Of a stretch of DNA of 24,765 nt, positions 1,777 through 17,751 are shown one piece after another. The position numbers and the translations under genes are program-made. The stretch is taken from positions 1 through 24,765 of IMG/VR virus record IMGVR_UViG_3300031707_000165; one strand, 5' to 3'. Under the pieces are notes generated by a model that was not told where the DNA came from, did not search any database, and worked only from the letters and a program-made list of their open reading frames with translations. Positions within the stretch are counted from its first letter, which is position 1; each line of letters begins with the position of its first letter. Source of the stretch: a virus.

Positions 1777-2970
1777 TTAATTGTCAGCGCGTGGCCGCAG
1801 TGCTTTGCTCAATGCCTGGCGCTCAGGAATAACTTCTCCTGCTATTGTTGCAGTAGTATTGTTATTAATGAAGCCAGTCTTCTGAGTTTGGCGCGTTAAT
1901 GATGAGTTAGCCGGCAACGCATTCTTCGGTTTGTTAGTCATGGTCATTCGTACATTATCTTCAAATTTAACCCAATTGGTTCCATTCCATCTATATAGTC
2001 TATTTGGGAGATAATCAGTTCTTAAATGGAATTGCCCGATGGTATTTGCTGATGGGAACTCAATGCCCATAGTGAAGGTGTACCCATTTGGTGGCTTTCC
2101 ATCCCCAGTTAACCATCCTATATAAAAATCCCTCTTAGGGCTGTGTAGTATCATACTTGCATCGACGGCTGCATCTTCCAAATCAACAGTGATTATATCA
2201 TCACTTGCATCTACTATATCAACAATGCCAGATTCTCGAGTTGGAATAACGAAATAGCTATGAGTATCATATCCACTCAATGGGGCGTCTGCTTCGGCTT
2301 GGGCGATAATTGCATCATTGATTTCTATATTTTTACTATACACACTCAATAAATCTCGTAAGGTTTTATTACCGTCGCCTGAGGGTGAATCCAGTATCTC
2401 TTTAAATTCTTGTGAATCGACCATAGGTTGGCATTTTGCTCTGAGTAAATGTGGATACCAAGTTTGACTATATCCCGTAGATGGGCGAGTAACTTCTGTA
2501 ATTACATAAAATCTTTTTAATGCAACCATGGCATCATCTAGTGCATATTCATCTTTTTGATGCGGCAATTCAATTACATCTCCAGCTATCAATTTTCTTC
2601 CCAATGCTTCAAATGTACTTCTTAGGTGAAAATTTACCATAATCTCATCGTTTTGCAAAAACAAACCAAATTGCGCCAAATTAAATACCGAATCAATCAT
2701 GGTATAAACTCCACGGAGCCTATAGACATCTGCATCATAGTGTCTATCTCTATTCTCCATTAGAAGAACATCCTGAATACCCAATTCTGTAATAGAATTT
2801 GTGTTGGTTGATACAACCGCGGTAACATCATCTGGGGCCGGATCAACAGGACCTAAATATTTGTGAACCATACAATCGGTCCCGCCGACTTGGAATTGTT
2901 CGTTTATTATACGATCTAAAAATTTAAAATCATTACCTTTCTCAGGTCTGTATAGGCTTAGTCTTGGCAT
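1777..2970 (-). CDS. 14: Neck protein, gp14-like
   Basis: This 397-aa protein is probably the head-tail connector/neck component equivalent to T4 gp14 (256 aa). Recognisable stretches are the M-P-R-L-S-L-Y-R-P start, F-Q-V-G-G-T-D (residues 26-32), L-M-E-N-R-D-R (70-76), A-Q-F-G-L-F (99-104), G-D-V-I-E-L-P-H (130-137) and a W-Y-P-H-L segment (171-175). The G-D-x-I-x-x-P and Q/K-F-G elements match the gp14 family, and from memory the long form is typical of marine T4-like phages. Residues 304-338 form a P-S-A-N-T-I-G ... R-W-N-G-T-N-W module also seen in the gp15-like and sheath proteins of this window. It is the first gene of the leftward operon. Its ATG is 5 nt after a late-promoter octamer and has no ribosome site. 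Assignment to gp14 rather than another connector protein is likely, not certain. Confidence 0.7.
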   Translation of the reverse strand: MPRLSLYRPEKGNDFKFLDRIINEQFQVGGTDCMVHKYLGPVDPAPDDVTAVVSTNTNSITELGIQDVLLMENRDRHYDADVYRLRGVYTMIDSVFNLAQFGLFLQNDEIMVNFHLRSTFEALGRKLIAGDVIELPHQKDEYALDDAMVALKRFYVITEVTRPSTGYSQTWYPHLLRAKCQPMVDSQEFKEILDSPSGDGNKTLRDLLSVYSKNIEINDAIIAQAEADAPLSGYDTHSYFVIPTRESGIVDIVDASDDIITVDLEDAAVDASMILHSPKRDFYIGWLTGDGKPPNGYTFTMGIEFPSANTIGQFHLRTDYLPNRLYRWNGTNWVKFEDNVRMTMTNKPKNALPANSSLTRQTQKTGFINNNTTATIAGEVIPERQALSKALRPRADN

Positions 2971-2975
2971 AGTAG

Positions 2976-2983
2976 TATTTATT
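2976..2983 (-). promoter_or_regulatory. Late promoter box AATAAATA for the gp14-like gene
   Basis: On the minus strand the octamer AATAAATA differs at one base from the T4 late box TATAAATA. It is followed by CTACT and then the ATG at 2970. A late transcript would be expected to start on or next to the ATG. No Shine-Dalgarno sequence lies between. Confidence 0.65.
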
Positions 2984-3005
2984 CACGATTGATTGTATAA
3001 GAGCA

Positions 3006-3013
3006 ACTAAATA
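3006..3013 (+). promoter_or_regulatory. Late promoter box ACTAAATA for gp13
   Basis: ACTAAATA matches the TAAATA core of the T4 late box and is followed by TAACT and the ATG at 3019. It mirrors the minus-strand box in the same 48-bp intergenic region, with 22 bp between the two boxes. No Shine-Dalgarno sequence is present. Confidence 0.65.
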
Positions 3014-3018
3014 TAACT

Positions 3019-3777
3019 ATGAATGAACTAGAAAACGAACGCCAAAAAGTCATAGATTACATCAAAACCATGATGGGAGATGGGATGGTAGATGTTGATT
3101 TGGATCCAATTCATTATAATACTGCCATAGACAAATCTTTAATGCGATATAGGCAACGTAGCCAAAACGCAACTGAAGAAAGTTATGGATTCTTAACATT
3201 GCAACTTGATGTAAATGATTACATTTTACCAAAAGAAGTAATCCAGGTCCGACAAGTTTTCCGAAGAAGCATAGGCTCTCGATCAGGTGGTGGAGATGGG
3301 GGTTCATTATTTGAACCATTTAATTTGGCATACACAAACACTTACCTTTTAGCCAGCTCACATGTGGGCGGATTAGGTACTTATTATGCATTTGCAAGTT
3401 ATCAAAATCTTGTAGGCAAAATGTTTGGTAGTTTTATTAATTTCAGCTTTAATCCTAGTTCAAAAAAATTAAGCATATCACAACGTCCGAGGGGTGAAGA
3501 GAGTGTATTATTGTGGATGTACAATACTCGGCCAGATTATGCATTATTTCAAGATAACTATGCGGGACTTTGGCTACGAGATTATGCCCTTGCAAATTGT
3601 AAGATAATGCAGGGTGAAGCCCGAGAGAAATTTTCTCAAATTGCCGGCCCTCAAGGCGGAACTACCCTTAACGGAGCAGCGTTAAAAGCTGAAGGTTTGG
3701 CATTAGTTGAAAAACTAGATCTTGAATTGTCTACTAATTTCGACAACCAACAACCGATGACTTTTGTTATTGGTTAA
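3019..3777 (+). CDS. 13: Neck protein, gp13-like
   Basis: This 252-aa protein resembles T4 gp13 (309 aa), the neck protein that sits on the portal vertex and joins head to tail with gp14. The N-terminal part has the family pattern: an initial helix, V-D-V-D-L-D-P, then a helix with A-I-D-K-S-L-M-R-Y-R-Q-R (residues ~38-49), followed by a F-L-T-L-Q-L-D ... Y-I-L-P strand pair. The central region is rich in Gly/Ser/Tyr and the C-terminal half has a long helical stretch with L-R-D-Y-A-L-A-N-C-K. The gene begins rightward transcription, divergent from its usual partner gp14. It has no ribosome site and its ATG is 5 nt after a late box. Identification rests on pattern similarity and context. Confidence 0.8.
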   Translation: MNELENERQKVIDYIKTMMGDGMVDVDLDPIHYNTAIDKSLMRYRQRSQNATEESYGFLTLQLDVNDYILPKEVIQVRQVFRRSIGSRSGGGDGGSLFEPFNLAYTNTYLLASSHVGGLGTYYAFASYQNLVGKMFGSFINFSFNPSSKKLSISQRPRGEESVLLWMYNTRPDYALFQDNYAGLWLRDYALANCKIMQGEAREKFSQIAGPQGGTTLNGAALKAEGLALVEKLDLELSTNFDNQQPMTFVIG

Positions 3778-3790
3778 CTATTCAAAATAC

Positions 3791-3820
3791 TTGACGATCT
3801 TTCTCATATCCTATAAATTA
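3791..3820 (+). promoter_or_regulatory. Sigma70-like promoter for dNMP kinase
   Basis: TTGACG (3791-3796) is followed by a TATAAA (3812-3817) at 15-bp spacing, or TAAATT (3814-3819) at 17 bp. The second region lies inside an inverted repeat CCTATA-AAT-TATAGG (about 3810-3824) that could be an operator. A clear Shine-Dalgarno GAGGAG follows before the ATG at 3840. The AT-rich element also resembles a late box (TATAAATT), so the gene may be read in both phases. Confidence 0.5.
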
Positions 3821-3839
3821 TAGGTATTGAGGAGATTCT

Positions 3840-4535
3840 ATGATCATAGGTTTTGTTGGATTCATTGGTGCAGGGAAAGATACAGCAGCAGATTTCTTGG
3901 TTAATTATTATGGATTTCGAAGAGAATCTTTTGCCAATACACTGAAAGATGCAGTTGCCGCAGTGTTTGAATGGGATCGAATTTTACTTGAAGGCAGAAC
4001 AAATCAAGCTCGCGAATGGCGAGAACAGGTAGATCCTTGGTGGGCTGAACGATTGAATATACCACATCTTACCCCTAGGTGGATTTTACAACATTGGGGC
4101 ACGGAAGTATTTAGAAAAGGTTTTCACGATGATTTGTGGATAGCAAGTCTTGAAAACAAGATGCGAAAAACCAAAGATGACATTGTCATATCAGATGTTA
4201 GATTTCCGAATGAGATTGCCGCAATTCACAATGCAAAAGGAATTGTTATCCGTGTGAAACGAGGACCTGATCCAAATTGGTTTCAAGCCGCGGTTGATTT
4301 TAATAAAGGGCCCAATGGCAATGCTGGATGGGCTATAGGAAAATCGAAATTGGAAAAAAATAAAATTCACTCATCCGAATCAGCCTGGGTTGGCGGAAAA
4401 ATTGATCATGTACTACTAAATGATACAACCATAGATGACTTATTCAAACAGCTTGAAAAAATTGTCAAAAATCAGGAGATAGATCCCCCTGCCGCCAAGG
4501 AAGAGATAAGTTATGAAGTAGCCGTTGACAATTAG
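3840..4535 (+). CDS. 1: Deoxynucleoside monophosphate kinase, gp1-like
   Basis: This 231-aa protein is like T4 gp1 (241 aa), which phosphorylates dNMPs to dNDPs for phage DNA synthesis in the cytoplasm. The N-terminus carries a P-loop, G-F-I-G-A-G-K-D-T (residues 7-15), followed by a helix and F-A-N-T-L-K-D-A-V typical of the family's lid and substrate region. W-I-L-Q-H-W-G-T-E and I-V-I-S-D-V-R-F-P-N-E are the other family hallmarks; the latter is the Walker-B-like strand. It sits between structural genes but has its own sigma70-like promoter and a strong ribosome site, consistent with expression before the late genes. Its last 71 bp overlap the opposite-strand zinc/HNH gene. Confidence 0.92.
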   Translation: MIIGFVGFIGAGKDTAADFLVNYYGFRRESFANTLKDAVAAVFEWDRILLEGRTNQAREWREQVDPWWAERLNIPHLTPRWILQHWGTEVFRKGFHDDLWIASLENKMRKTKDDIVISDVRFPNEIAAIHNAKGIVIRVKRGPDPNWFQAAVDFNKGPNGNAGWAIGKSKLEKNKIHSSESAWVGGKIDHVLLNDTTIDDLFKQLEKIVKNQEIDPPAAKEEISYEVAVDN

Positions 4536-4800
4536 CACACACGGTTTTAATGTTATCATAACGACAATTATTTAAATTTCCGTCAGTATGGAACACGTTA
4601 AATTGTTGAGAATAACGACTAGAGAATCCACAACGGTCGCATTTTGATTTTTTCTTGTATCCCGCTTTGGCCCATCGCGGGATGCCTTCTTTTGCACATC
4701 TAGAACAATGATCACATTGTGATCTATAATGTGCTTTCCCCTCTTTGTAATAATTGATAGCAACTGGTCGTTGATTGCAAGTATTGCACAATTTTCGCAT
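4465..4800 (-). CDS. Zinc-binding HNH-like protein
   Basis: This 111-aa protein has two cysteine pairs near the N-terminus (C5-x2-C8 and C29-x2-C32) and an HNH-like core: C54-x2-C57, the H-T-D-G-N segment with H71, N83, then C88-x2-C91. That arrangement fits an HNH (beta-beta-alpha-metal) nuclease with a structural zinc site. I recall close relatives in other T4-like phages, usually annotated as hypothetical or HNH endonuclease. It is the only gene on this strand between 3000 and the right edge of the window. Its 3' end overlaps the end of the dNMP kinase gene by 71 bp, in antisense. It has a GGGGAAAG sequence upstream of the ATG and its own possible promoter. Whether it cuts DNA is not shown by the sequence. 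Confidence 0.85.
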   Translation of the reverse strand: MRKLCNTCNQRPVAINYYKEGKAHYRSQCDHCSRCAKEGIPRWAKAGYKKKSKCDRCGFSSRYSQQFNVFHTDGNLNNCRYDNIKTVCANCQRLLHNLSLPWRQGDLSPDF

Positions 4801-4847
4801 ATATCTTTCCCCTGCATTGTATTTACGCCCTTTGACGCACCCTTTGA

Positions 4848-4876
4848 TTTGTATCTTACCTTATCAAAAATCACAA
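4848..4876 (-). promoter_or_regulatory. Possible sigma70-like promoter for the HNH-like gene
   Basis: On the minus strand TTGTGA (4876-4871), a 17-bp spacer and TACAAA (4853-4848) form a moderate promoter about 48 bp upstream of the ATG at 4800. It lies beside the rightward late promoter of the sheath gene, so the two may interfere. Confidence 0.4.
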
Positions 4877-4881
4877 AAGTT

Positions 4882-4889
4882 ACTAAATA
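4882..4889 (+). promoter_or_regulatory. Late promoter box ACTAAATA for tail sheath
   Basis: ACTAAATA is identical to the octamers before gp13 and the gp54-like gene. Here there are 30 nt between the box and the ATG at 4920, and this leader contains a strong Shine-Dalgarno sequence, GAGGAGAT (4906-4913). Confidence 0.6.
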
Positions 4890-4919
4890 ACAGTATCAAT
4901 CCATTGAGGAGATCGAAGA

Positions 4920-7900
4920 ATGGCGACATTACAATCACCGGGCGTAGAAGTAACAGTTATCGACGAGAGTTTTTATACCAGTGCTAATCCAGGCACAGTA
5001 CCAATGATTTTTGTGGTATCTGGAACTGACAAACCAAATGCAAGTGGTACTGGAACGGCTCCGGGAACCCTGGCAACAAATGCGGGAAAAGTTTGGACTA
5101 TCACAAGTCAACGTGATCTAAGTGATACTTTTGGCACCCCAACGTTTTATACCGATGCTGATGGAAATCCTGTCAACGGTGGTGAACTGAATGAATATGG
5201 CTTGCAAGCAGCCTATAGTTTTTTGGGAGTCAGTTCAAAAGCCTATATTGTTCGAGCAGATGTTAATACCAGCGAATTATCAGCTGTTGCTTCTGAACCA
5301 AATGGAGATCCAACTAGTGGAACATATTGGTTAGACACATCGAATACTCTATTTGGAGTAAGCGAATGGGATGCAACAAATCGTGTGTTTGTTGATAAAA
5401 CCCCATTAATTATTGACAATGATAATAAACTTTCTGTTGCAGATTTATCTGGAAGTACCTGGACTCCGAAAGCGAGCTTCGGAGTTCAAGGCAATTATGC
5501 AATGACTGTAACAAGTGAGAATACAAACCAATTATGGTTTAAGAATACAGATAATGTATGGGTCACTGTTGGAACAAATCATGAATTGAATTTCAGTGCA
5601 GGTGGGTTTACGAGTAGTGTATGGCAAACAAGTTGGCCGCTAGTTAAGAGCACAGGGTTCGGAACCGTGGCAACATCGACAACTATTGTAGTCAATGGAA
5701 CAACTATTACCCTGAGTGCTTCGTCAGTGACTCCAGCAACAGTTGCGACAAGTATTAATACAGCGATGGCTACTAAAGGAGTCGGTGCACGAGTGGTAAA
5801 TGGCTACTTGGCTTTATATGCTGATCAAAATGCAAAATCAGACAACGTAAATGTTGATGGAAAAATTGCATTGGCAAGTGGTACAGCTTTGTTACCGAAC
5901 TTGGGATTGACCACAGGTACAACAGGTGCTGTGGCATTATCCATTCAACCACATACTCAATATCCGCAATACACAACGGGCGCAAATCCTACAGGCTCAT
6001 TATATGTAAAAACAACTACACCTAACAACGGTGCAAGTTGGATTACAAAATACTTCAATGGTGCCACTTTAAGTTGGGGAACTGTTTCTGCTCCGATCTA
6101 TGCTTCATCTGAGGCCGCAATTTATGCATTAGATACGGCTGGTGGGAAAAACATTCCAGTTGGCTCCCTATATGTTGAATCTAATTATGATCATGGCACA
6201 GGTGCTTCTACAAGTAGTGTTAAATTATCAGAATTTAAAATATTCCGTAGAGCAGCAAGTAGCCCAACTGTCGTAAGTACGGTGGCATCAACTGCCACAA
6301 TTACAAGCACAAGTACCTTCATCATCAAAGAAACTTTGGTAAATAGTGCGACATATTCATCCACGACCACAGTCACAATTCCTGCAGGGAGCACCCTAGA
6401 TGGTGTTGTTACCGCAGTTAGTGCAGCTGGTTTGGTCAATGTTTCGGCGGCTCATAGTTCATCGGCCGGCACTATCAGTTTAAGTCACGCACTTGGTGGA
6501 AATTTTGAATTAACAGATGGAACAAACTCTCCATTGACTACGCTAGGATTTACTGCATATGATATGGTCACAAAACTTGGCACACCAAACCTATATGCAA
6601 CTGGTGCATATGATAGTATGAGTTTGGTTGGCAGCAATTGGAAACCTTTAGTTTTTGAAGCTAAAGCAGATGCCCCTTATACTGTACCGGCCGACGGACG
6701 TTTATGGTATAATTCCATTGTTGATGAAGTTGACATCATGGTTCATGATGGATCAACATGGGTTGGATATCTAACAGCATTCCCAACAAGCGATCCTGCA
6801 GGTCCTCAAATTGCGGCATTGGCCCCAACTACGCAGAGTGACGGAACTGATTTGGTTAATGGTGATATCTGGATCAGCACAGCTGATATAGAACTATATG
6901 GACAGAATATATACGTTTGGAACAGTATTACATTAAAATGGGTTAAGCAAGATACGACCGATCAAACCACTCCTAATGGATGGTTATTTGCAGATGCACG
7001 ATGGGCGACCACTGGTCAATCTACGACCGCATCGTCAATAGTTTCATTATTGTCAAGCGGATACTTAGATCCTGATGCCCCAGATCCTGCATTATATCCA
7101 CAAGGAATGCGTTTATGGAATCTACGCCGTAGTGGATTTAATGTGAAGAAATACGTTGTCGATCATATCAATATATATGATAACGATGGCTTGAATGCTC
7201 GATATGGTGATCAAGCTATGGATACCCCAGGTAATGAATATTACGCAAATCGTTGGGTTAGCGCAAGTCCTAATGCAGCAGATGGCAGTGGTACTTTTGG
7301 CCGCCTTGCACAACGCGGTATTATTGTTGCAAGACTAAAGGCATTGATAGATTCTAATCAAGCAATTCGTGATACGGATTCATTAGTATTCAATTTAATT
7401 GCAACCCCTGGCTATACTGAAACAATTCAGAATATGATTGCTTTTAATACTGATCGAAGCCAAACAGCATTTGTTGTTGGTGATACACCGTTCAGATTGG
7501 CTCCTACAGGTACTGCATTGGCAGAGTGGGGAAATAACACCAATGGTGCATTAGACAATAATGATGTCGGCGCTGTCAGTTACGATGAATATATGGCGAT
7601 GTTTTATCCAAGTGGATATACAAATGATAATACTGGTAACTATATCGTTGTTCCACCAAGTCATATGATGTTGAGAACTATTGCTAACAGTGATGCTAAG
7701 AGTTATCAATGGTTTGCTCCAGCAGGAACACGCCGTGGTGGAGTTGACAATGCAACTTCAGTTGGATATTTGTTAGATGGGGAATTTAAAGCAGCAGCAT
7801 TGCACGTAGGTCTTCGCGACGTGTTGGCTGGGGTTAATATTAATCCAATCGCAACTATTCCCGGAGTCGGAATATTAAATTATGGTAACAAGACACGAGC

Positions 7901-8240
7901 AAGAAACGCAAGTGCATTGGATAGGATCAACGTTGCTAGATTAGTGGTTTACTTACGTAGACAACTAGAAATTCTTGCTCGTCCATTCTTATTTGAACCA
8001 AATGATAGAATCACTCGTAATGAAATTAAGGCCGCAACAGAAAGTTTGTTGTTGGAATTGATGGGACAACGAGCATTGTATGACTTTATTGTAGTATGCG
8101 ATACATCGAATAATACAAATGCAAGAATTGATCGTAATGAGCTATGGTTGGATATTGCTATTGAGCCAGTCAAGGCTGTGGAATTTATCTACATTCCATT
8201 ACGTTTGAAGAATACTGGCGCAATCAAGGCTGGTCTGTAA
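4920..8240 (+). CDS. 18: Tail sheath protein, gp18-like (giant form)
   Basis: This 1106-aa contractile sheath protein compares with 659 residues in T4 gp18. The conserved ends are clear. The N-terminus M-A-T-L-Q-S-P-G-V-E-V-T-V-I-D leads the domain that exchanges strands with neighbours. The C-terminal ~330 residues hold L-D-R-I-N-V-A-R-L, the long Y-L-R-R-Q-L-E helix, R-P-F-L-F-E-P-N-D and a final P-V-K-A-V-E-F-I-Y-I-P. The middle is much enlarged. It has two Thr/Ser/Ala/Val-rich beta segments (~245-330 and ~457-547) resembling the flagellin hook IN type, and several Trp-containing G-x-(L/I)-W ... W repeats (about 134-160, 205-217, 360-390, 593-620, 648-680). These probably decorate the sheath surface. 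The gene has its own late promoter and ribosome site and is followed by the tube gene. Confidence 0.93.
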   Translation: MATLQSPGVEVTVIDESFYTSANPGTVPMIFVVSGTDKPNASGTGTAPGTLATNAGKVWTITSQRDLSDTFGTPTFYTDADGNPVNGGELNEYGLQAAYSFLGVSSKAYIVRADVNTSELSAVASEPNGDPTSGTYWLDTSNTLFGVSEWDATNRVFVDKTPLIIDNDNKLSVADLSGSTWTPKASFGVQGNYAMTVTSENTNQLWFKNTDNVWVTVGTNHELNFSAGGFTSSVWQTSWPLVKSTGFGTVATSTTIVVNGTTITLSASSVTPATVATSINTAMATKGVGARVVNGYLALYADQNAKSDNVNVDGKIALASGTALLPNLGLTTGTTGAVALSIQPHTQYPQYTTGANPTGSLYVKTTTPNNGASWITKYFNGATLSWGTVSAPIYASSEAAIYALDTAGGKNIPVGSLYVESNYDHGTGASTSSVKLSEFKIFRRAASSPTVVSTVASTATITSTSTFIIKETLVNSATYSSTTTVTIPAGSTLDGVVTAVSAAGLVNVSAAHSSSAGTISLSHALGGNFELTDGTNSPLTTLGFTAYDMVTKLGTPNLYATGAYDSMSLVGSNWKPLVFEAKADAPYTVPADGRLWYNSIVDEVDIMVHDGSTWVGYLTAFPTSDPAGPQIAALAPTTQSDGTDLVNGDIWISTADIELYGQNIYVWNSITLKWVKQDTTDQTTPNGWLFADARWATTGQSTTASSIVSLLSSGYLDPDAPDPALYPQGMRLWNLRRSGFNVKKYVVDHINIYDNDGLNARYGDQAMDTPGNEYYANRWVSASPNAADGSGTFGRLAQRGIIVARLKALIDSNQAIRDTDSLVFNLIATPGYTETIQNMIAFNTDRSQTAFVVGDTPFRLAPTGTALAEWGNNTNGALDNNDVGAVSYDEYMAMFYPSGYTNDNTGNYIVVPPSHMMLRTIANSDAKSYQWFAPAGTRRGGVDNATSVGYLLDGEFKAAALHVGLRDVLAGVNINPIATIPGVGILNYGNKTRARNASALDRINVARLVVYLRRQLEILARPFLFEPNDRITRNEIKAATESLLLELMGQRALYDFIVVCDTSNNTNARIDRNELWLDIAIEPVKAVEFIYIPLRLKNTGAIKAGL

Positions 8241-8242
8241 TT

Positions 8243-8250
8243 GGTAAATA
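8243..8250 (+). promoter_or_regulatory. Possible late promoter box GGTAAATA for tail tube
   Basis: GGTAAATA keeps the TAAATA core and lies 23 nt before the tube ATG. A strong AAGGAG (8261-8266) ribosome site lies between. It would allow the tube to be made in excess of the sheath transcript. Confidence 0.4.
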
Positions 8251-8273
8251 TAACAAAGATAAGGAGCACTTAG

Positions 8274-8900: not shown

Positions 8901-8920
8901 ACTATTTTATCGAATTAAAG

Positions 8921-8945
8921 AAGCCCGATTTTTTCGGGCTTTTTT
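8921..8945 (+). terminator. Intrinsic terminator after tail tube
   Basis: A perfect 8-bp stem, AAGCCCGA (8921-8928) with TCGGGCTT (8934-8941), has a 5-T loop and a run of T to 8945. It ends 4 nt before the late box of the next gene. Confidence 0.92.
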
Positions 8946-8949
8946 GATG

Positions 8950-8957
8950 ACTAAATA
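8950..8957 (+). promoter_or_regulatory. Late promoter box ACTAAATA for the gp54-like gene
   Basis: ACTAAATA is followed by CTTAC and then the ATG at 8963, with no Shine-Dalgarno sequence. The preceding terminator makes a separate transcript likely, and by T4 geometry it would begin at the ATG. Confidence 0.65.
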
Positions 8958-8962
8958 CTTAC

Positions 8963-10189
8963 ATGGCTAATCCTTTTGTAAATTTTCTTAGTGGTGTATT
9001 TGATGGCTCAGGAGACATGCGAGACTATCAACACGCGTCAAGATTATATGTTAATAATTTTTACGAATTAGCCCCGAAAGCTGGTTGGATATATTACGTG
9101 GTAATGGTTGTTAATCCAAAAATTAGAGGAGCTATTACCGACACCGTTAGATTAGGAGAATTTGATACATGGTATAACCGATATAAAGGTACTGTTGGAT
9201 TGTTAGCAAAATCAGTCGATATGCCTAAGTTTAATATTGAAACTGAGGTGATGAATCAATATAATAAAAAGACTGTGATCCAAAAACGAATTAATTATTC
9301 TCCGGTCAGTATCACCTTCCATGATGATATGGCGAATGTAACCACCAATTTGTGGAAGCAATATTTTCAATATTATTTTGCAGATAGCATCACTGAAGAA
9401 AAATCTTGTAGGTTATCGCCGTCTATATTACCTAAATATACCGATACCAAATATAATGATTATAATCCCAGTTCGGATTATCATTACGGATTAAACAATA
9501 AACAAAGTATTCCATTTTTTATCGCGGTCGACATTTATCAATTATACAAGAGGCGATTTACTTCATTTAAATTAGTAAATCCCTTAATAAAAGAGTGGGG
9601 GCATGATGCACTCGACCAATCTGTTGGAAATAAAATGCTATCAAGCAAAATGACAATCGAATACGAAACTGTCATATACAACACAGATCCTCTTAATAAA
9701 ATTACCCAAGATAATCCCGGATTTGCAAAAGATCATTATGATAATAGTCCAAGCCCTCTCAGCATCGGTGGGGTGGGAACAAATAGTATTTTTGGCCCAG
9801 GTGGGATAGTCGCAGGAGCAAGTGAGGTGTTCGGCGACCTAGCCAATATTGGTACAGCCAGTCCACTTGATATATTAAATACTGCAATAAAAGGTGCCAA
9901 TTTGGTTAAGAATGTCAAGAAGGTTTCGTCTACAGGGGTTAAAGAAGAAGGCTACAGTATCTTGACCGGAGTTTTGGGAAATATTAGTTCAACCCCTGCA
10001 TCAGTTACAAATCCTGATGGGACGGTTTCTAAGGTTCCTGCAGGCACAAGAACATCTCAAGGATTCAATCAATCTATAGCTGGGATCCGTCAAGTAATTA
10101 CTCCAGTGGGAATAAATTTATTTACTGGTAATAACTCGAGTGTAAATGGCCAATCGCAAGCCACCCAAAAGAAAATAGGCCCACAATAA
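8963..10189 (+). CDS. Tube-fold baseplate protein, gp54/gp48-like
   Basis: This 408-aa protein shares features with the T4 gp54/gp48/gp19 family, which nucleates and caps the base of the tail tube. Visible similarities are K-S-V-D-M-P-K-F-N-I-E-T-E (~residues 82-94), a V-M-N-Q-Y-N-K-K strand, and I-N-Y-S-P-V-S-I-T-F-H-D-D followed by a helix with N-L-W-K-Q-Y-F-Q-Y-Y. These correspond to the M-P ... I-S-F-R-x-D-H region of gp54. A strand M-T-I-E-Y-E-T-V-I-Y lies near residue 235. The last ~150 residues are Gly/Ser/Thr/Asn-rich and less structured. T4 gp54 is 320 aa. It opens a transcription unit that continues, with 1-nt gaps or overlaps, through the 123-aa protein, gp4 and gp16. Which of gp48 or gp54 it corresponds to is not decided. 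Confidence 0.6.
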   Translation: MANPFVNFLSGVFDGSGDMRDYQHASRLYVNNFYELAPKAGWIYYVVMVVNPKIRGAITDTVRLGEFDTWYNRYKGTVGLLAKSVDMPKFNIETEVMNQYNKKTVIQKRINYSPVSITFHDDMANVTTNLWKQYFQYYFADSITEEKSCRLSPSILPKYTDTKYNDYNPSSDYHYGLNNKQSIPFFIAVDIYQLYKRRFTSFKLVNPLIKEWGHDALDQSVGNKMLSSKMTIEYETVIYNTDPLNKITQDNPGFAKDHYDNSPSPLSIGGVGTNSIFGPGGIVAGASEVFGDLANIGTASPLDILNTAIKGANLVKNVKKVSSTGVKEEGYSILTGVLGNISSTPASVTNPDGTVSKVPAGTRTSQGFNQSIAGIRQVITPVGINLFTGNNSSVNGQSQATQKKIGPQ

Positions 10190-10999: not shown

Positions 11000-11472
11000 C
11001 AAAAAAATTAGAAGAAATCCTCGGTATAAATGAAAAAGTTGAGCCTATACCACCAAATATAGAACCTCCGAAAAAGCAACAAGTAATTAACCTCCAGGAA
11101 AAGCTTGAAGAGTTTGATAAAATTGCCTCTGCTCTACCCATAGTCACCGGGTTGGGAGATATGAGTGATTCCGAATTCGATGCCCTCGCGGCAAAGGCTG
11201 AGCAAGCATACGACGATTTAATGGACCTAGGAATGAATGTCGAGGCAAGATACGGTGCAAGGATGTTTGAAGTGGCTGGGAATATGTTAAATGCAGCAAT
11301 TGCGGCAAAGAGTGCGAAGATTGATAAGAAATTAAAGATGGTCAATCTTCAACTTAAAAAGCTAGATATTGATAAAAAACATGGTACAAAAGATGATAAT
11401 GAAGTGAATGGTGAAGGGTATATCCTAACTGATCGCAATAGCATATTGGAAAAACTTAGGAATTTGAAATAA
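10996..11472 (+). CDS. 16: Terminase small subunit, gp16-like
   Basis: This 158-aa protein is close in size to T4 gp16 (164 aa), which recognises concatemeric DNA and stimulates the large terminase. The middle carries the strong family signature: I-A-S-A-L-P (~43-48), G-L-G-D-M-S-D-S-E-F, Y-D-D-L-M-D-L-G-M-N-V-E-A-R (~72-85), F-E-V-A-G-N-M-L and K-L-K-M-V-N-L-Q-L-K-K at the end of a long helix. The long central helices fit the coiled-coil oligomerisation domain. The large subunit lies two genes downstream rather than adjacent, separated by two putative head proteins. Confidence 0.93.
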   Translation: MTKKLEEILGINEKVEPIPPNIEPPKKQQVINLQEKLEEFDKIASALPIVTGLGDMSDSEFDALAAKAEQAYDDLMDLGMNVEARYGARMFEVAGNMLNAAIAAKSAKIDKKLKMVNLQLKKLDIDKKHGTKDDNEVNGEGYILTDRNSILEKLRNLK

Positions 11473-11475
11473 ATA
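11468..11475 (+). promoter_or_regulatory. Possible late promoter box AATAAATA
   Basis: AATAAATA is the same octamer as in front of the gp14-like gene. It overlaps the stop codon of gp16 and lies 23 nt before the ATG of the 195-aa gene. The leader has only a weak, distant AGGA. Confidence 0.4.
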
Positions 11476-11498
11476 AAGCATAGGATCACATACTCATT

Positions 11499-12086
11499 AT
11501 GAAAAATTTTAAAGATTATCTTACAGAAAGTTCAAAGAAATACGATTTCCGCATAAAAATTGCAGGTGATGTTTCGAAGGAACAAGAAGTAAACTTGAAG
11601 GAGATGTTGACCAAATACCAAATATCAGCTTTCAAAAAAGCAGGTCAAACCCCCATCCAAGAACTCCCATTAGATTTTCCAAAGATAAAAAATCGAGCAG
11701 TTAATATATATGAAGTGACTTTAGATTATCCAACTACACAATGGGAACTATTAGAATACCTTTGTAGCGGTCTTGGATTTACTCAAGAATCGATGGTCAT
11801 CCGTCGTGATGGGGAACCATCAGAACAATATCAAGCAGCACCTGGTGAAAAACGCAAAGGAGCTTTGTTGCTTGATCCAAACTATTCAGAATCACCAAAC
11901 GCAAAAATGGAAGATTTTTATGGTGACAAATATAACTCTGGCTTTGTAAAAGAATTAAACGATATTCTGAAATTACAACGAAAAGACAGAGGGGAAGAAA
12001 TTCCAGCCACTGAGCCTGCAAAATATATTACAGATGACGTTAAATCTAAAAGTGTGTTAACACCGTCCTCGGATCCGAGAAAGTAA
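11499..12086 (+). CDS. Putative internal head protein with capsid-targeting-like N-terminus
   Basis: This 195-aa protein has no named family that I can assign. Its first residues, M-K-N-F-K-D-Y-L-T-E-S, resemble the capsid targeting sequence of T4 internal proteins (M-K-T-Y-Q-E-F-I-A-E-A). They include an L-x-E at residues 8-10 where the prohead protease gp21 would cut ((L/I)-x-E). The body is a mixed alpha/beta domain with a long polar C-terminal region. The protein lies between small and large terminase genes with a possible late promoter. I infer that it is packed in the prohead and perhaps ejected with the DNA. A cytoplasmic role cannot be excluded. Confidence 0.6.
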   Translation: MKNFKDYLTESSKKYDFRIKIAGDVSKEQEVNLKEMLTKYQISAFKKAGQTPIQELPLDFPKIKNRAVNIYEVTLDYPTTQWELLEYLCSGLGFTQESMVIRRDGEPSEQYQAAPGEKRKGALLLDPNYSESPNAKMEDFYGDKYNSGFVKELNDILKLQRKDRGEEIPATEPAKYITDDVKSKSVLTPSSDPRK

Positions 12087-12087
12087 T

Positions 12088-13467
12088 ATGTATAATTTAT
12101 TGAAGAAATTGACAGACCTATCAGGAAATCGTGTGGCTAATGAAGGTCTAGTTGATCCTCATAATTATGATAGTGATTGGGATTATTATGATGCTCTAAA
12201 TGCGCCATCCAAACGTCGCAGTGGGTATTCATCTAGATCCGATGATACGGTTGACATGGATCCGCCTAGTAAATCAGCTAAGCCTGATGGCATATCCTAC
12301 AAATTCGATAAAGAAGCTGAGGGTGTGGCTCCGAATGGTCAACGGTATAATTTAGTAGTTACAATTTCCGGACCTGATGAGACAACGATTGCTCATAAAG
12401 TTCAGTTATTTAAAGATCACGAATGGGGGGCAAAGGAAGTCGTTGATACAAAAGCATCTTCTGATGGAACACCCGGAATTACTCTATTTGTTGTAAACAA
12501 CCACAAATATGGTCATTTTAAACCTTGGAAAGATGAAAATGCAACAAATGAAGGAACAGATATGAATGAAATAACATTAGAAAGCTTGCGTCTATTATCA
12601 GGTATGAAAGCTCCTATCGCAGAATGTGGAATGTCACCAGTCATGGACAGCATGGGCGGCGGAAGTGGAACGCCGGCATCTATTAGCGCAACGGCTGGTA
12701 GTGGACCAGAATTATCTGCAATGTTGAAAGACATTATGAGCCTGGCGGGATTGAAGCAAGTTGGTCAAAATGATATGCCTGCTGATATTGGACCAAGTAA
12801 GGTAATTTCGGCCCCACCAATGGCAGGGGTTGACCCTATGCGATCAATGATGGATATCATTGACGGCGATGATGATGTGGCTGAACCAGCCGCTCCAGAC
12901 TCTATGAACAATGATGAAATGGGCGGCAATGGGGCCGATGGAAAAGACGACGGAATTGATACGGGTGATGGTGATGAAGTAGAAGATGAAGGATTATTAG
13001 GCACAATGGCCGGATCCGCCGCAGGCGCCGCACTTGGTGGTCCTCTGGGAGCTGCTGTTGGCGGGGCAGCTGGCGATGCTATCACTGGCAAAGAAGAAGA
13101 AAGCAGAAATCCAGAATATTTAAATTCTCCGAAAGAAAAATCATTACCAAATCCAGTTAGTAGATTGGGAGATGTAAATCAAGGCGATCATCGCGAGCGC
13201 CAAAAGGGATTACCTCAGGGGAACCCACAAACAACTGCTGAATCATTATTGGCAGATTATAAAAAGTTTGTGATTGAAGAATCCAAAAAACCAAGTGCAG
13301 GTATGACCACCAAAGAAAAATCATCCCTTGCAAAGAAAGCCTCTGCAGGTAAAGATATTGGAAAACCTGGGAAAAATTTTGAAAAAGTTGCAAAGAAAGC
13401 AGGTGGTGGTGAAAAGGGTAAAAAGATTGCAGCCGCAGCAATGTGGAAGAATGCAGCAAAAAAATAA
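12088..13467 (+). CDS. Putative head-associated protein with glycine zipper and basic C-terminus
   Basis: This 459-aa protein of unknown function starts 1 nt after the previous gene. It is modular. The N-terminus has the L-x-x-L-x-x-L-S-G motif (residues 1-13), then comes a polar linker. A small alpha/beta domain spans ~70-150, followed by two more copies of the motif around 165-175 and 215-222. An acidic Asp/Gly-rich linker covers 265-300 and an Ala/Gly zipper ~300-334. Residues 388-401 resemble a capsid targeting sequence. A strongly basic Lys/Ala/Gly tail from ~405 ends in A-A-A-A-M-W-K-N. From memory, similar basic tails occur in several marine T4-like virion proteins. The tail could bind packaged DNA. 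A terminator follows the stop. Confidence 0.65.
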   Translation: MYNLLKKLTDLSGNRVANEGLVDPHNYDSDWDYYDALNAPSKRRSGYSSRSDDTVDMDPPSKSAKPDGISYKFDKEAEGVAPNGQRYNLVVTISGPDETTIAHKVQLFKDHEWGAKEVVDTKASSDGTPGITLFVVNNHKYGHFKPWKDENATNEGTDMNEITLESLRLLSGMKAPIAECGMSPVMDSMGGGSGTPASISATAGSGPELSAMLKDIMSLAGLKQVGQNDMPADIGPSKVISAPPMAGVDPMRSMMDIIDGDDDVAEPAAPDSMNNDEMGGNGADGKDDGIDTGDGDEVEDEGLLGTMAGSAAGAALGGPLGAAVGGAAGDAITGKEEESRNPEYLNSPKEKSLPNPVSRLGDVNQGDHRERQKGLPQGNPQTTAESLLADYKKFVIEESKKPSAGMTTKEKSSLAKKASAGKDIGKPGKNFEKVAKKAGGGEKGKKIAAAAMWKNAAKK

Positions 13468-13482
13468 TCATCCAAACCTATC

Positions 13483-13508
13483 AATAGCCCCTTCTGGGGC
13501 TATTTGTT
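13483..13508 (+). terminator. Intrinsic terminator before large terminase
   Basis: A perfect 9-bp stem, AATAGCCCC (13483-13491) with GGGGCTATT (13496-13504), has a TTCT loop and a T-rich tail. It ends the gp54-like to 459-aa unit and is followed within a few nucleotides by the late box of gp17. Confidence 0.88.
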
Positions 13509-13510
13509 TC

Positions 13511-13518
13511 TGTAAATA
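13511..13518 (+). promoter_or_regulatory. Late promoter box TGTAAATA for gp17
   Basis: TGTAAATA is followed by ACAAT and the ATG at 13524. There is no Shine-Dalgarno sequence, and the spacing is identical to that at gp13, gp14, the gp54-like gene and the 873-aa gene. Confidence 0.6.
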
Positions 13519-13523
13519 ACAAT

Positions 13524-15116
13524 ATGGCAAGTAATAAGCATCTCGATGGTAATCTAATAAAGCGGGCTCACGCAACTCAAAAATGGACTCAAAAAGAAAT
13601 AGAAGATTTGATGAAATGTCAAGATCCTGATACGGGCCCTGCATATTTCTTAGACAATTTCTTTTTTATTCAACATCCAACAAAGGGCAAGCTTCAATAT
13701 CATGCATATGATTATCAAATAGAATTATTACAAAGTTATCACACTCATCGATTTAGTGTGAACATGCTAGGACGACAGTTGGGGAAAACAACCACCGCAG
13801 TGGGATATCTACTCTGGTATGCAATGTTTATACCTGACAGCACAATATTAATTGCCGCCCACAAATATACAGGTGCCCAGGAAATTATGCAACGCCTTAG
13901 GTATGCATATGAACTATGCCCTGATAATATCAGAGGTGGAGTTACAAGTTATAATAAACATAGTATTGATTTCGACAACGGATCTCGTATTGTTGCGCAG
14001 ACAACAACTGAAACAACAGGCCGTGGTATGTCTGTCTCCCTATTATACTCGGATGAGTTTGCATACGTTGAGCCTAATATTGCAACAGAATTCTGGACAT
14101 CTATTAGCCCCACTTTAGCAACTGGTGGTAAAGCAATTATTACATCAACTCCGAATAGCGATGAAGATCAATTCGCTCAAATATGGAATGAAGCGAATAA
14201 GAAATTCGACGAATTCGGAAATGAGACTGAATTGGGCCGCAATGGATTCTTCCCGTTCATGGCGATTTGGAGCCAACATCCAGATCGTGATGCGGCTTGG
14301 GCAGAGACGGAGCGCAGTCGAGTTGGAACAGAAAGATTTGAGCGTGAACACGAATGCAAGTTCTTGATTTTCGATGAGACTTTAATCAATAGCATCAATT
14401 TGGCAAATCTAGAAGGAGCCGAGCCTCTTGTAAAAATGGGGCAGGCCAGATGGTATAAATCGATTGACCCTACATGTACCTATATTTTTAGCTTAGATCC
14501 CAGTTTAGGAACTGGTGGTGATTACGCCGCAATTGAAGTAATTGAATTGCCAACTTTGAACCAAGTTGCTGAATGGCATCATAACACAACCCCTGTCCAA
14601 GCACAAGTGAGAATATTACGGGATATGATTAAATTCGTCGATGACCAATGCCTAGAGGCAAAAGTTACGAGTAGTATATATTTCAGCGTTGAAAATAATA
14701 CTGTTGGGGAAAGTGCATTAGTTGCAATAAGCGAGATCGGAGAAGAAACTTTTCCAGGATTTTTCTTATCAGAACCAATCAAAAAAGGACATATTCGACG
14801 ATTTAGAAAAGGGTTTAATACTACCCATGCCTCGAAGATTTCCGCATGTGCCAAATTAAAACAACTAATTGAAAGTAAACAACTTAAAATTAACAGTAAG
14901 CCGTTAATCAGTGAATTGAAAGCATTCGTTGCAACTGGAATCACATTCAAAGCCAAGATAGGACAACATGATGATTTGGTATCAAGTATATTGGTCGCGA
15001 TTAGAATGATAATGCTTCTGCAAGACTGGGATCCATTAGTTTATGAAAAGATGCGAGATCATAGTGGATTGGAAGAATACGACCTACCTATGCCCATCTA
15101 TATTAGTCATTTTTGA
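13524..15116 (+). CDS. 17: Terminase large subunit, gp17-like
   Basis: This 530-aa DNA packaging motor and nuclease compares with 610 aa in T4 gp17. The ATPase domain has Walker A G-R-Q-L-G-K-T-T (residues 83-90), Walker B L-L-Y-S-D-E (E178 catalytic) and the coupling motif T-S-T-P-N (207-211). The RNase H-like nuclease domain has F-S-L-D-P-S-L-G-T-G-G-D-Y (D325), S-V-E-N-N (E390) and H-D-D-L-V (D483/D484), the three acidic positions that bind metal. It uses ATP to translocate DNA into the prohead through the portal and cuts the concatemer. It is transcribed from its own late promoter after a terminator, with no ribosome site. No internal frameshift or intron is seen. Confidence 0.96.
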   Translation: MASNKHLDGNLIKRAHATQKWTQKEIEDLMKCQDPDTGPAYFLDNFFFIQHPTKGKLQYHAYDYQIELLQSYHTHRFSVNMLGRQLGKTTTAVGYLLWYAMFIPDSTILIAAHKYTGAQEIMQRLRYAYELCPDNIRGGVTSYNKHSIDFDNGSRIVAQTTTETTGRGMSVSLLYSDEFAYVEPNIATEFWTSISPTLATGGKAIITSTPNSDEDQFAQIWNEANKKFDEFGNETELGRNGFFPFMAIWSQHPDRDAAWAETERSRVGTERFEREHECKFLIFDETLINSINLANLEGAEPLVKMGQARWYKSIDPTCTYIFSLDPSLGTGGDYAAIEVIELPTLNQVAEWHHNTTPVQAQVRILRDMIKFVDDQCLEAKVTSSIYFSVENNTVGESALVAISEIGEETFPGFFLSEPIKKGHIRRFRKGFNTTHASKISACAKLKQLIESKQLKINSKPLISELKAFVATGITFKAKIGQHDDLVSSILVAIRMIMLLQDWDPLVYEKMRDHSGLEEYDLPMPIYISHF

Positions 15117-15124
15117 TATAAATA
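15117..15124 (+). promoter_or_regulatory. Late promoter box TATAAATA for the 873-aa gene
   Basis: This is an exact T4 late-promoter octamer. It begins directly after the gp17 stop, is followed by TCTAT and the ATG at 15130, and has no Shine-Dalgarno sequence. Confidence 0.75.
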
Positions 15125-15129
15125 TCTAT

Positions 15130-17751
15130 ATGAATGCCATAGACCTAATATCTCAAGATCTTTTTGACAAAGTTCGAAGTCGATTTTCTAACCTAGAAAT
15201 GGGCGATGAAGAAGGAAATGTTACCAGTGATCCACATGCGTCCAGATTTTTTGATTTTGATTTTACCATAGAAGGTAACAATCTTGGACGAGTGAGCATA
15301 TCCATCAATGAACGAGGTTCTTTGAAGATATTTTATAGCCAAGGTATACTAGAAGGTTCAAATCCGATCGTCCAAAAGATATGGTTTGATTTCTTGCGTG
15401 AAATGCGGAATTTTGCAAAACGCAGATTATTACGATTTGATACCCGAGATATTACAAAGAATAATTTAGATAAGACAGATTTCAAATACTTAGCCACTAC
15501 TGGCACGAAGGAAGATAACATGACTGACAGCAAAATGGAAAAAAGCAAAATGTTTGGTAGCTCAAAAAGTAGTTACTTACCATTAGATACTGCCCCATTC
15601 AAGACTAGACTGGTAGTTCGCCACAACAAAGCGGTGGATGAAGAACAGCGTGGCGCTAGGAGTAGAAATATTAATGCCATATACATCGAAAATGAAGATG
15701 GTGAACGTTTTAAATATCCTTTTGTACACCTGGCCGGCGCCAAGGCTATGCAACGACATGTTGCAAATGGTGGGAAACCGTTCGATGAATGCGGGAATGC
15801 AATCGTAAAAATGAGTGAGAACATTGCCAAACTCCATGCATTTAAACGTCATGTGGGCAGTCACGATAGCATGCATAAGGAAACAAATGAAATAATGGAT
15901 CGTGCATGTGCCAAGTTAGAGAATCTTCGAAGCCACATTGCTAATCTAAGCAAGCAGCGCCACTATGAAGAATGGAAAAATGCTTTTTCTCCAAACACTG
16001 AAGATGAAGAAATGGTTCTTGATCAAGCTACGATGGAGGATTACAAGAGTAAATTCACAGTCAACACATTTTCTGAAGATCTAAGCCAGTATTTCCCACT
16101 GATTCATTCGATAATGAAGGAAACAGGAACAATTGATTTAGACGCTTATGTTGGTGAGGCATCTGATGACGAGGAAGAGGATTGTGACAAGTGTCACAAA
16201 TCACCATGCGAATGCGAAAAGGCAGTCAAAGAATTCGCGCAATTTGAAGCATGGGCAAATGCTGTTTCTGAAGGCAAATATGAACCAGATACATTGAAGG
16301 GACTGGAAGATTTATTGAAAAATAATCTAACACTTGGAGTTGATGCCACAAGCGCCATTGAAGCATTGCAAGGAATTGGAATTCACGACGAAACATTAGA
16401 AAAAGCGTTGGCAATGTTGGCTAAAATAAATCCAGAAACAGACCCCAAAGACGCAATACTTGGTTGGTTGGCAACGGAAGATCCAGAGGCCGCAGCCGCA
16501 TTAGGTGGTCCAGGCGCAACCTCAGATAAACAAGTTGAACCAGAACAACCAGTTGCGCCTGAGCAATCCCCAGCACCTGTAGCCGATCCCGGAATGACCC
16601 CGCAGCAACCAATGCCAACCGCAGAAGATACAGAAGAAGAGGGAATGGGCGGTGCATTAGCTGGAGGAGCAATCGGAGCAGCAATAACAAAATCACCACG
16701 AGGTGCAATGTCTGGTGCAGAACTTGGTAGTAAAGTTCAAGATGCATTGCCTCCGTTAAAAGAAATCGCAGAAATGGTGAAAAGTTTTTATGACAAAGAA
16801 ACTGGAAAATTCCCATTAGGTGAAACAGGTGTTATTACCAAAGTTAAAAAAGAATTCGGTGATCAGGCAGGCGCCCTTGCAGAAAGGTTGGTAAATCATT
16901 TATCTGGAGTTGGACGAGCTCAACAGGGACAAGAATTGGACGAATTGAATCTTCGTCCATCTATTGCAAAAATTTCTCCAGAAGAAACAAATTTATATAG
17001 GGCAGCGATGAAAGATATCGCAACGAAAATTGATAAATTAAATGCTATGTATATCAAAGCTCGCCAAATGAATAATCAAGAAATGATGGGTAAGATTAAG
17101 GAACGACTTGCATTTTTTGCAAGTCAAAAAGCAGACCTATCTAGTAATCTGGATCAACGTCAGCAAGGTAGTACGCCATCTGAAGACATGGTCGATGAAA
17201 TTCGTGGCCCATTGGCGGGGCATCCTTATCATGATAAATCGGATGCTGAATTGCGATACATTATCAAGGATGCCGGAGAAGCCGCCCGTATGATGAAGGG
17301 ATTGAATCCAGCCGCAGAGGCAAAATACCTTGATCAAGTAAATGATGCATCAACAGTTTTATACCATAGAAAACAAAAAGGTAACAATCAACTACACCGT
17401 ACTGATGATCCATATGACATTGACGACCCCGCTCCAATGGAAGAAACAGGAGTTGAATTGGAAAATGTAATTCCTGGCTCGCCTAATGCCCCTGTTGGTG
17501 AAAGTGGAGAGCATAGTTACAATGATGACGATTGGTATGAATACAATCCAACAACCAAAGAAATAGTTAAACAACATAGCCCTAGTTCCTTTAAATCAAA
17601 TTGGGATGGTGGCAACAGTGCACATACATTGCCAAATGGAAATAAAGTTGAAAAAGGTATGCGGGTTAAATTCAAAGGAATGACCCATTCGAAAACTAAT
17701 GAGGGTTTTGGTTTGGAAGATATTTTGAAATTATCTGGTGTAAAAATTTAA
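15130..17751 (+). CDS. Large putative virion protein of unknown function
   Basis: I start this 873-aa protein at 15130 because the in-frame ATG at 15043 lies deep inside gp17, while 15130 is placed 5 nt after an exact late box. The N-terminal ~130 residues form an alpha/beta domain (F-D-F-D-F-T, R-V-S-I-S-I-N-E). A second domain (~160-310) has I-E-N-E-D-G-E-R-F-K-Y-P and H-L-A-G-A-K-A-M-Q-R-H-V. A C-x2-C-x4-C-x-C cluster lies near residues 352-362. Then follow E-A-W-A-N-A-V-S-E-G, an acidic/Pro-rich linker, an Ala/Gly zipper (~505-535), coiled-coil helices and a C-terminal G-L-E-D-I-L-K-L-S-G motif shared with the 459-aa protein. I recall related large proteins in marine T4-like phages without a known function. 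A head-internal or virion role is inferred from the late promoter and shared motifs. Confidence 0.75.
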   Translation: MNAIDLISQDLFDKVRSRFSNLEMGDEEGNVTSDPHASRFFDFDFTIEGNNLGRVSISINERGSLKIFYSQGILEGSNPIVQKIWFDFLREMRNFAKRRLLRFDTRDITKNNLDKTDFKYLATTGTKEDNMTDSKMEKSKMFGSSKSSYLPLDTAPFKTRLVVRHNKAVDEEQRGARSRNINAIYIENEDGERFKYPFVHLAGAKAMQRHVANGGKPFDECGNAIVKMSENIAKLHAFKRHVGSHDSMHKETNEIMDRACAKLENLRSHIANLSKQRHYEEWKNAFSPNTEDEEMVLDQATMEDYKSKFTVNTFSEDLSQYFPLIHSIMKETGTIDLDAYVGEASDDEEEDCDKCHKSPCECEKAVKEFAQFEAWANAVSEGKYEPDTLKGLEDLLKNNLTLGVDATSAIEALQGIGIHDETLEKALAMLAKINPETDPKDAILGWLATEDPEAAAALGGPGATSDKQVEPEQPVAPEQSPAPVADPGMTPQQPMPTAEDTEEEGMGGALAGGAIGAAITKSPRGAMSGAELGSKVQDALPPLKEIAEMVKSFYDKETGKFPLGETGVITKVKKEFGDQAGALAERLVNHLSGVGRAQQGQELDELNLRPSIAKISPEETNLYRAAMKDIATKIDKLNAMYIKARQMNNQEMMGKIKERLAFFASQKADLSSNLDQRQQGSTPSEDMVDEIRGPLAGHPYHDKSDAELRYIIKDAGEAARMMKGLNPAAEAKYLDQVNDASTVLYHRKQKGNNQLHRTDDPYDIDDPAPMEETGVELENVIPGSPNAPVGESGEHSYNDDDWYEYNPTTKEIVKQHSPSSFKSNWDGGNSAHTLPNGNKVEKGMRVKFKGMTHSKTNEGFGLEDILKLSGVKI

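Follow-up and report, generated by a model that had tools for sequence, protein, structure and literature searches.

The T4-type (gp55-dependent) late promoters of a large group of T4-like giant phages, most of them uncultured, very likely double as translation-start elements, such that numerous genes for virion and packaging proteins appear to be leaderless, although gp55 dependence, transcription start and translation are all inferred. The architecture is associated with a late-promoter octamer that ends exactly 5 nt before the start codon, and is found alongside conventional leadered genes.

Placement of the late-promoter octamer

The initial annotation of the window, which is the whole 24,765-nt stretch of viral DNA analysed, had claimed five late octamers, each exactly 5 nt from an ATG, and all five were confirmed in position and strand. 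Two of them lie back-to-back, with AATAAATA at 2976..2983 on the minus strand preceding the ATG of a gp14-position virion structural protein (PHROG 11591; 1777..2970, minus strand), and ACTAAATA at 3006..3013 on the plus strand preceding that of a gp13-like head-tail adaptor (PHROG 211; 3019..3777, plus strand). The other three are also on the plus strand, as are their genes. A second copy of ACTAAATA at 8950..8957 precedes a 408-aa tail-tube-like protein (8963..10189; PHROG 13438 with a modest score, described as gp54-like in the initial annotation), TGTAAATA at 13511..13518 precedes the large terminase subunit TerL (gp17; 13524..15116; Pfam PF03237/PF17289), and TATAAATA at 15117..15124, right after the TerL stop, precedes an 873-aa virion structural protein (PHROG 13484; 15130..17751). 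The open reading frames that begin at these ATGs encode 252–873 aa, and all five genes are inferred to be leaderless.

A pattern search of the window for TAAATA-N5-ATG returned exactly these five sites, and a reversed control pattern returned none. The hexamer as such is not over-represented, with 30 occurrences against 34.9 expected; it is the placement of TAAATA, and not its abundance, that is in excess. When upstream regions were shuffled only 0.08 gap-5 genes were expected against the five observed, with a maximum of three in 5000 shuffles, and any other hexamer/position pair upstream of genes in the window was shared by two genes at most.

The same scan with shuffled controls was run on relatives of the phage and gave a clear gap-5 excess there too, with 67 genes observed against 3.1 expected. 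The sharp 5-nt peak recurs in eight related contigs. Permuted hexamers gave no comparable peak. Orthologous sites are not independent, but counts by gene family remain strong: no hexamer/position pair is commoner upstream of starts than TAAATA at 5 nt (36 of 575 families). The box is kept in 47/47 orthologues of the 408-aa gene, 72/74 of TerL and 77/77 of the 873-aa gene, and it lies at gap 5 in all seven gp13 orthologues that have upstream sequence. The spacer sequence varies among orthologues whilst the 5-nt spacing is conserved. Hence the claim that a constant 5-nt spacing is hard to explain by chance or AT-richness held against shuffles, permuted hexamers, AT-rich controls and orthologues, but constancy itself has to be amended, as gaps of 6–7 nt also occur in some orthologues. 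For the 873-aa gene the gap is 5 nt in 29 orthologues, 6 in 35 and 7 in 11, and for the gp14-position gene in relatives it is mostly 7, with ACT preceding the ATG. Open reading frame starts were picked mechanically and gene starts are predictions only; moreover, the search for leaderless starts was limited to ATG, so the choice of start codon is without an independent test.

Transcription start, ribosome sites and two initiation modes

There is strong indirect support, drawn from sequence and without mapped 5' ends, for transcription starting at or within a few nucleotides of the start codon. The T4 late octamer occupies -13 to -6 (PMC1524935; see also PMC2988020), so a 5-nt gap places +1 on the A of the ATG. 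If so, a pyrimidine is expected at -1, and one is found at 62 of 63 gap-5 sites compared with 52% of other starts, at 158 of 160 sites in a second count, and in 33 of 35 families (p=2e-7). In divergent gene pairs two back-to-back boxes are accommodated between start codons that are often only 26–31 nt apart, which leaves no space for leaders. Terminators often precede the box, and intrinsic ones lie just upstream of those of the 408-aa gene and TerL. The former is a hairpin and T-run at 8921..8941 (plus strand; the palindrome is listed on the minus strand, whilst the T-run that follows is on the plus strand), and the latter a terminator-like hairpin at 13483..13504 (plus strand), conserved in eight relatives. 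The first 40 nt of the predicted leaderless mRNAs are also less structured, with a mean folding energy of -1.6 compared with -3.3 kcal/mol (p=2e-8). Among orthologues the codons just downstream of the ATG vary whilst the residues are largely conserved, which supports the start codon. The proposal that these mRNAs are leaderless, with +1 on the A, is thus supported by spacing conservation, the -1 pyrimidine, divergent pairs and upstream terminators, but only indirectly: neither 5' ends of RNA nor N-termini of proteins are available for any member of the group, and initiation and translation at the ATG are therefore only inferred.

As the initial annotation had claimed, no Shine-Dalgarno sequence precedes any of the five genes, and such sites are present at gp1, gp18, gp19, gp32, uvsX and the 82-aa gene, as well as at uvsY. 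The site claimed for uvsW was not confirmed because the start of uvsW is ambiguous. Several further genes in the window are without a clear ribosome site, but these overlap or closely follow an upstream gene. Overall, an SD-like motif is found at 3% of gap-5 starts and 47% of other starts, with the caveat that the box itself fills most of the position available to a ribosome site. Strong ribosome sites are retained by the sheath, tube and major capsid genes, and therefore two modes exist side by side. In the window a late box is followed by a 30-nt leader with a GAGGAG site before gp18, the tail sheath gene (4884..4919, plus strand), and by a 23-nt leader with an AAGGAG site before gp19, the tail tube gene (8245..8273, plus strand); gp18 is leadered in 9/9 contigs. 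The idea of a leaderless late mode must consequently be amended, as the highest-copy late proteins are made from leaders with ribosome sites. A real and conserved dual-mode architecture is very probable, with transcript starts and translation at the ATG inferred in the absence of mapped RNA. Genes would be sorted between the two modes, leadered mRNAs serving mainly the most abundant virion proteins, although sorting by copy number is itself inferred.

The mode also appears to extend beyond late promoters, which amends the 'late' part of the original claim. Sigma70-type promoters peak at gap 6, their own -10-to-+1 distance, and the leaderless mode is therefore not purely late. A gene missed in the initial annotation, encoding a 404-aa protein with glycosyltransferase-like and methyltransferase-like parts (23365..24579, plus strand), has the arrangement TTGACT-N18-TATAAT-N5-ATG. 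The promoter (23330..23359, plus strand) ends 5 nt before the ATG and lies outside late control, and the gene is inferred to be leaderless.

Proposed mechanism and relation to known systems

In the proposed mechanism, host RNA polymerase carrying a gp55-like sigma factor would bind to the NNTAAATA box, which spans -13 to -6, and begin transcription at the A of the ATG, so that the mRNA would open with AUG and have no leader. This 5'-terminal AUG would then be engaged by host ribosomes, probably in the 70S form, in the absence of a Shine-Dalgarno sequence. Initiation by 70S ribosomes has been described for other leaderless mRNAs. The sequence-based evidence comprises the box, its spacing and conservation, the -1 pyrimidine, the terminators, the weak 5' structure and gp55 homologues in three relatives (G001, G002 and G003); the position of the transcription start and translation from the 5' AUG remain inferences. 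Genes orthologous to T4 late genes are preceded by an octamer like TATAAATA. The window, a fragment of 24.8 kb, yielded no gp55.

Several accompanying factors were considered and rejected. Phage bS21 is present in PA5oct and HTVC008M but was not found in the clade contigs, and so does not correlate with the leaderless mode. RegB, as a driver through cleavage of ribosome sites, was found only in T4, and phage IF3 only in GAP32. For stop-codon overlap, through the TAA in TAAATA, controls were against the idea, and terminators rather than stops precede the boxes of TerL and the 408-aa gene.

Both components of the architecture, the T4 late promoter and the leaderless mRNA, are known, and it is their combination that is a new variant. 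As with the T4 late promoters (gp55/gp33/gp45), the octamer is the same, there is no -35 element, a gp55 homologue is found in relatives and the same kinds of gene are served (neck, tail and terminase). However, T4 normally uses leaders with ribosome sites, as the initial annotation correctly stated, and its own box is mostly some 20–30 nt before the ATG, whereas the box of the phages studied here abuts the gene. T4 has one gap-5 gene against 0.9 expected, and no gap-5 peak was seen in T4, PA5oct, GAP32, Syn9 or S-PM2. Bacterial leaderless genes, such as the TA-led genes (PMC3160421) and those of Lactococcus with its bimodal leaders (PMC10986495), likewise carry a -10-like box some 10 bp ahead of the start codon and lack a ribosome site, with two modes per genome and intermediate leader lengths avoided. 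What differs is that the box described here mainly serves a late sigma specific to the phage, and that its genes are virion genes of a T4-like phage. Lambda, cited as the first case of a leaderless mRNA (PMC3160421), also provides a phage mRNA that begins at AUG. The lambda mRNA is that of cI, a single regulatory gene, whereas here a set of conserved structural genes is involved.

The closest cultured TerL relatives are PA5oct and the GAP32/CBB-like jumbo phages. An ATAAATA late motif has been reported for CBB (PMC5259590), but these phages are without the gap-5 peak, and the boxes of GAP32 are further upstream. TerL groups with PA5oct (Arenbergviridae), apart from T4, cyanophages and GAP32, in a FastTree phylogeny of 24 tips with some weakly supported branches. 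The Pelagibacter phage HTVC008M, a separate lineage, displays the same signal at 11 gap-5 genes; HTCC1062 is given as its host in the sequence record. Assignment to the 'Far-T4' freshwater phages (PMC4360716) is possible. An attempt to identify the host through TerL recovered no relative from bacterial genome assemblies. The literature searches, which could reach only open-licence papers, brought up neither a description of leaderless late genes in T4-like phages nor a transcriptome study of PA5oct.

Alternative explanations and implications

The alternative that survives best, and remains possible, is that these are real late promoters but that transcription starts 1–3 nt away from the A, or heterogeneously, to give tiny leaders without a ribosome site. 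Orthologue gaps of 4, 6, 7 or 8 nt, which mean that +1 may be 1–3 nt off in some orthologues, speak for it, as do the 29:35:11 split of gaps 5, 6 and 7 at the 873-aa gene and the ACT-preceded gap 7 of the gp14-position gene. Against it, the main peak is sharp at 5, and the near-universal -1 pyrimidine at gaps 5 and 6 favours a start on the A in either case.

It is unlikely that translation of these genes relies on longer transcripts begun upstream, with the box acting in translation or as a merely secondary late promoter. Operon arrangements are frequent among late genes, and because the TerL stop abuts the box of the 873-aa gene, read-through transcripts could carry that gene. However, the boxes of TerL and the 408-aa gene each have a terminator immediately upstream, co-transcription is impossible for divergent pairs, the five starts have no ribosome site, and a translational role cannot explain the differing sigma70-type spacing. 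True starts further downstream, with ribosome sites and short leaders, had been named at the outset as a result that would refute the leaderless reading. Although gene starts are only predicted, this possibility is very unlikely and largely refuted, as relatives largely keep the same N-terminal residues when read from the proposed ATG, with synonymous change between them, for example in TerL and the 873-aa protein. A chance placement of a common hexamer in AT-rich DNA, with which the lack of TAAATA enrichment in the window would be consistent, is all but excluded by the shuffles, the permuted hexamers, the orthologue conservation and the absence of a peak in the equally AT-rich T4, PA5oct and GAP32.

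A bolder reading of leaderless late expression can be made as a single joint claim, although as a whole it is held with slightly more doubt than belief. Here, a whole T4-like lineage would sort its genes between two translation-initiation modes. Low-copy proteins of the head, neck, packaging and replication would be expressed from leaderless promoters, late as well as sigma70-type, and the abundant sheath, tube and capsid proteins from leadered mRNAs in which the ribosome sites are strong. Where a promoter lies would thereby contribute to protein stoichiometry. The mode would also have evolved on two or more occasions, one of them in the line of the Pelagibacter phage, and PA5oct would have lost it.

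Late transcription in T4 is textbook material, and its leadered mRNAs have been assumed to represent the whole family. If a widespread uncultured lineage conserves a leaderless late mode, the calling of gene starts and promoters in such genomes would change, and late transcription starts would become readable from sequence because each would coincide with a start codon. Such a mode would also imply that the host ribosomes are proficient at translating leaderless mRNAs, and would provide a natural case of orthologous virion genes placed under different initiation modes.

Spacing between late boxes and start codons

The window is a virus contig of 24,765 bases from a T4-superfamily phage, and its genes include those for a tail-sheath stabiliser, neck, dNMP kinase, sheath, tube, head-closure nuclease and large terminase (TerL), together with gp32, UvsX, UvsY and a UvsW-like helicase. 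The initial annotation had claimed that five T4-type late-promoter octamers (boxes, containing TAAATA) each lie 5 nt 5' of an ATG, and this held: all five were found, before the gp14-position gene (minus strand), gp13, a 408-aa tail gene, TerL and an 873-aa gene. A pattern search for TAAATA-N5-ATG gave exactly five matches in the window and its reversed control none. These five genes compare with a mean of 0.08 in shuffled upstream regions, and when all hexamers and positions were considered the runner-up pair occurred twice. TAAATA itself is slightly scarcer in the window than expected; the unusual property is its spacing from the ATG, not its abundance.

Distances from TAAATA to the ATG of ORFs of at least 80 aa were counted over the window and the loci of 80 relatives, contigs whose encoded TerL is 69–82% identical. 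They peak at 5 nt (165 cases), with 40 at 6, 43 at 7 and fewer than 20 at every other distance except 31 nt (52 cases), which is the box position of the leadered sheath gene in several contigs; permuted hexamers gave no comparable peak over the same set. The peak at 5 recurs in each of eight related contigs, with 5–14 genes per contig, larger contigs being examined as 20-kb pieces. With each gene family entered only once, the top hexamer/position pair is TAAATA at 5 nt (36 of 575 families), ahead of the Shine-Dalgarno hexamers, and the full count of genes with this gap of 5 is 67 against 3.1 in shuffles. Among comparison phages, gap-5 genes number one in T4, two in PA5oct and none in GAP32, Syn9 or S-PM2. 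Unlike those of the clade, the boxes of T4, GAP32 and the cyanophages Syn9 and S-PM2 mostly lie some 20–36 nt from the start.

Inferred transcription start

The T4 octamer occupies -13 to -6 (PMC1524935), so that a 5-nt gap would place +1 on the A of the ATG. Bacterial RNA polymerase favours start sites with a pyrimidine at -1 followed by a purine at +1. A pyrimidine directly precedes the ATG at 62 of 63 gap-5 sites and at all 14 gap-6 sites, the figure at other starts being 52% (n=729). With one member per family the count is 33/35 (p=2e-7), and it reaches 158/160 in the fetched loci and 98/102 in more distant relatives; positions -2 and -3 of gap-5 sites show no pyrimidine bias.

The start codons of the divergent gp13 and gp14-position genes are 26–32 nt apart in most relatives and 48 nt apart in the window, the DNA between them being taken up by two back-to-back boxes, a layout that recurs in a second divergent pair. 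Judged from sequence alone, this layout leaves no space for leaders. In nearly all relatives an intrinsic terminator with a T-run ends a few nt 5' of the boxes of TerL and the 408-aa gene, so that transcription from upstream probably does not supply these two genes. Folding of the first 40 nt is also weaker in gap 5–6 genes than in genes with a ribosome site (mean -1.6 versus -3.3 kcal/mol, p=2e-8). The proposal of the initial annotation that these late genes are transcribed as leaderless mRNAs is strongly supported by sequence evidence, there being no RNA or protein data for the contigs.

Promoters of the sigma70 type (TTGACA-like, 16–18 nt, TATAAT-like) also abut start codons in the clade. 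The gap between -10 and ATG peaks at 6 (22 genes), with a second broad group at about 20–31 and few in between; the 22 is approximate, as a few matches look like coding-sequence coincidences. The -10 hexamer occupies -12 to -7, and a gap of 6 would therefore again set +1 on the A. As late boxes peak at 5 and sigma70-type promoters at 6, each class is spaced by its own geometry. Within the window, such a promoter (23330–23365, gap 5) abuts a glycosyltransferase/methyltransferase-like gene at 23365. The gap-6 arrangement is frequent in relatives, including at the primase gene, whose abutting promoter is kept in seven contigs. No sigma70-type peak near the start codon was seen in T4, PA5oct, GAP32, Syn9 or S-PM2.

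Conservation and two modes within one genome

The box is found before 72 of 74 TerL orthologues (66 at 5 nt) and before every orthologue of the 408-aa gene (47/47), the 873-aa gene (77/77) and gp13 (7/7). Orthologous sites are not independent of one another, and gene starts were picked mechanically. Spacer letters vary, and directly 3' of the ATG residues are largely conserved with synonymous codon changes, which indicates a genuine start. The two TerL orthologues lacking an abutting box, at loci L013 and L019, carry a Shine-Dalgarno sequence in its place. At L013, TAAATA is still present after the terminator but now with a leader, an arrangement that suggests a switch of initiation mode. The sequence upstream of the L019 gene reads as if an inserted homing-endonuclease-type gene ended there.

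Other genes are leadered: sheath in 9/9 contigs (leaders of 30–35 nt with ribosome sites), tube in eight, and a gene shortly 5' of the capsid gene. At the major capsid gene, 5/5 clade contigs show AAGGAGA, and none of them has a box closer than 150 nt. Among the leaderless-type genes are TerL and those for neck proteins and for several structural proteins of the minor kind. Sorting of the two modes by low versus high protein copy number fits these data, but remains an inference only, because the copy numbers come from general knowledge of T4.

Two further features of the window genes were observed. A 111-aa cysteine-rich ORF (4465–4800, minus strand), antisense between gp1 and gp18, is conserved in relatives and may have its own late box. 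The product of 11499–12086 begins MKNFKDYLTES. Similar N-terminal motifs, MK.F.EYL.E or MRINEL, are seen in many proteins of the clade and recall T4 capsid-targeting sequences.

Distribution across phage lineages

In a 353-kb related contig (G001) the box of many genes stands at gap 4 instead of 5. Several of these genes encode MRINEL-type N-termini, and some follow immediately on tRNA-like sequence; at gap 4 the pyrimidine bias of position -1 is weaker. Loci fetched with the PA5oct TerL (53–59% identical to it) contain 102 gap-5 sites, with 61 of 80 loci positive, and GAP32-like loci give no gap-5 signal. In a TerL tree of 24 tips, PA5oct falls inside a group rich in leaderless members, beside a leaderless contig, and loss of the mode in PA5oct is therefore possible. 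The TerL of Pelagibacter phage HTVC008M groups with cyanophages, and this phage has 11 gap-5 genes against 0.73 expected, 10 of the 11 with a -1 pyrimidine. On a tree of this size, two origins of the leaderless mode and repeated loss are both conceivable. Homologues of gp55 were found in three related contigs (G001–G003), PA5oct, GAP32 and HTVC008M. Neither a phage-encoded ribosomal protein, bS21 (HTVC008M, L213; PA5oct, L214), nor an IF3-like protein (GAP32, 234984–235244) correlates with the leaderless mode. The initial claim of five late genes in one window is to be widened to a conserved dual-mode architecture across a large lineage.
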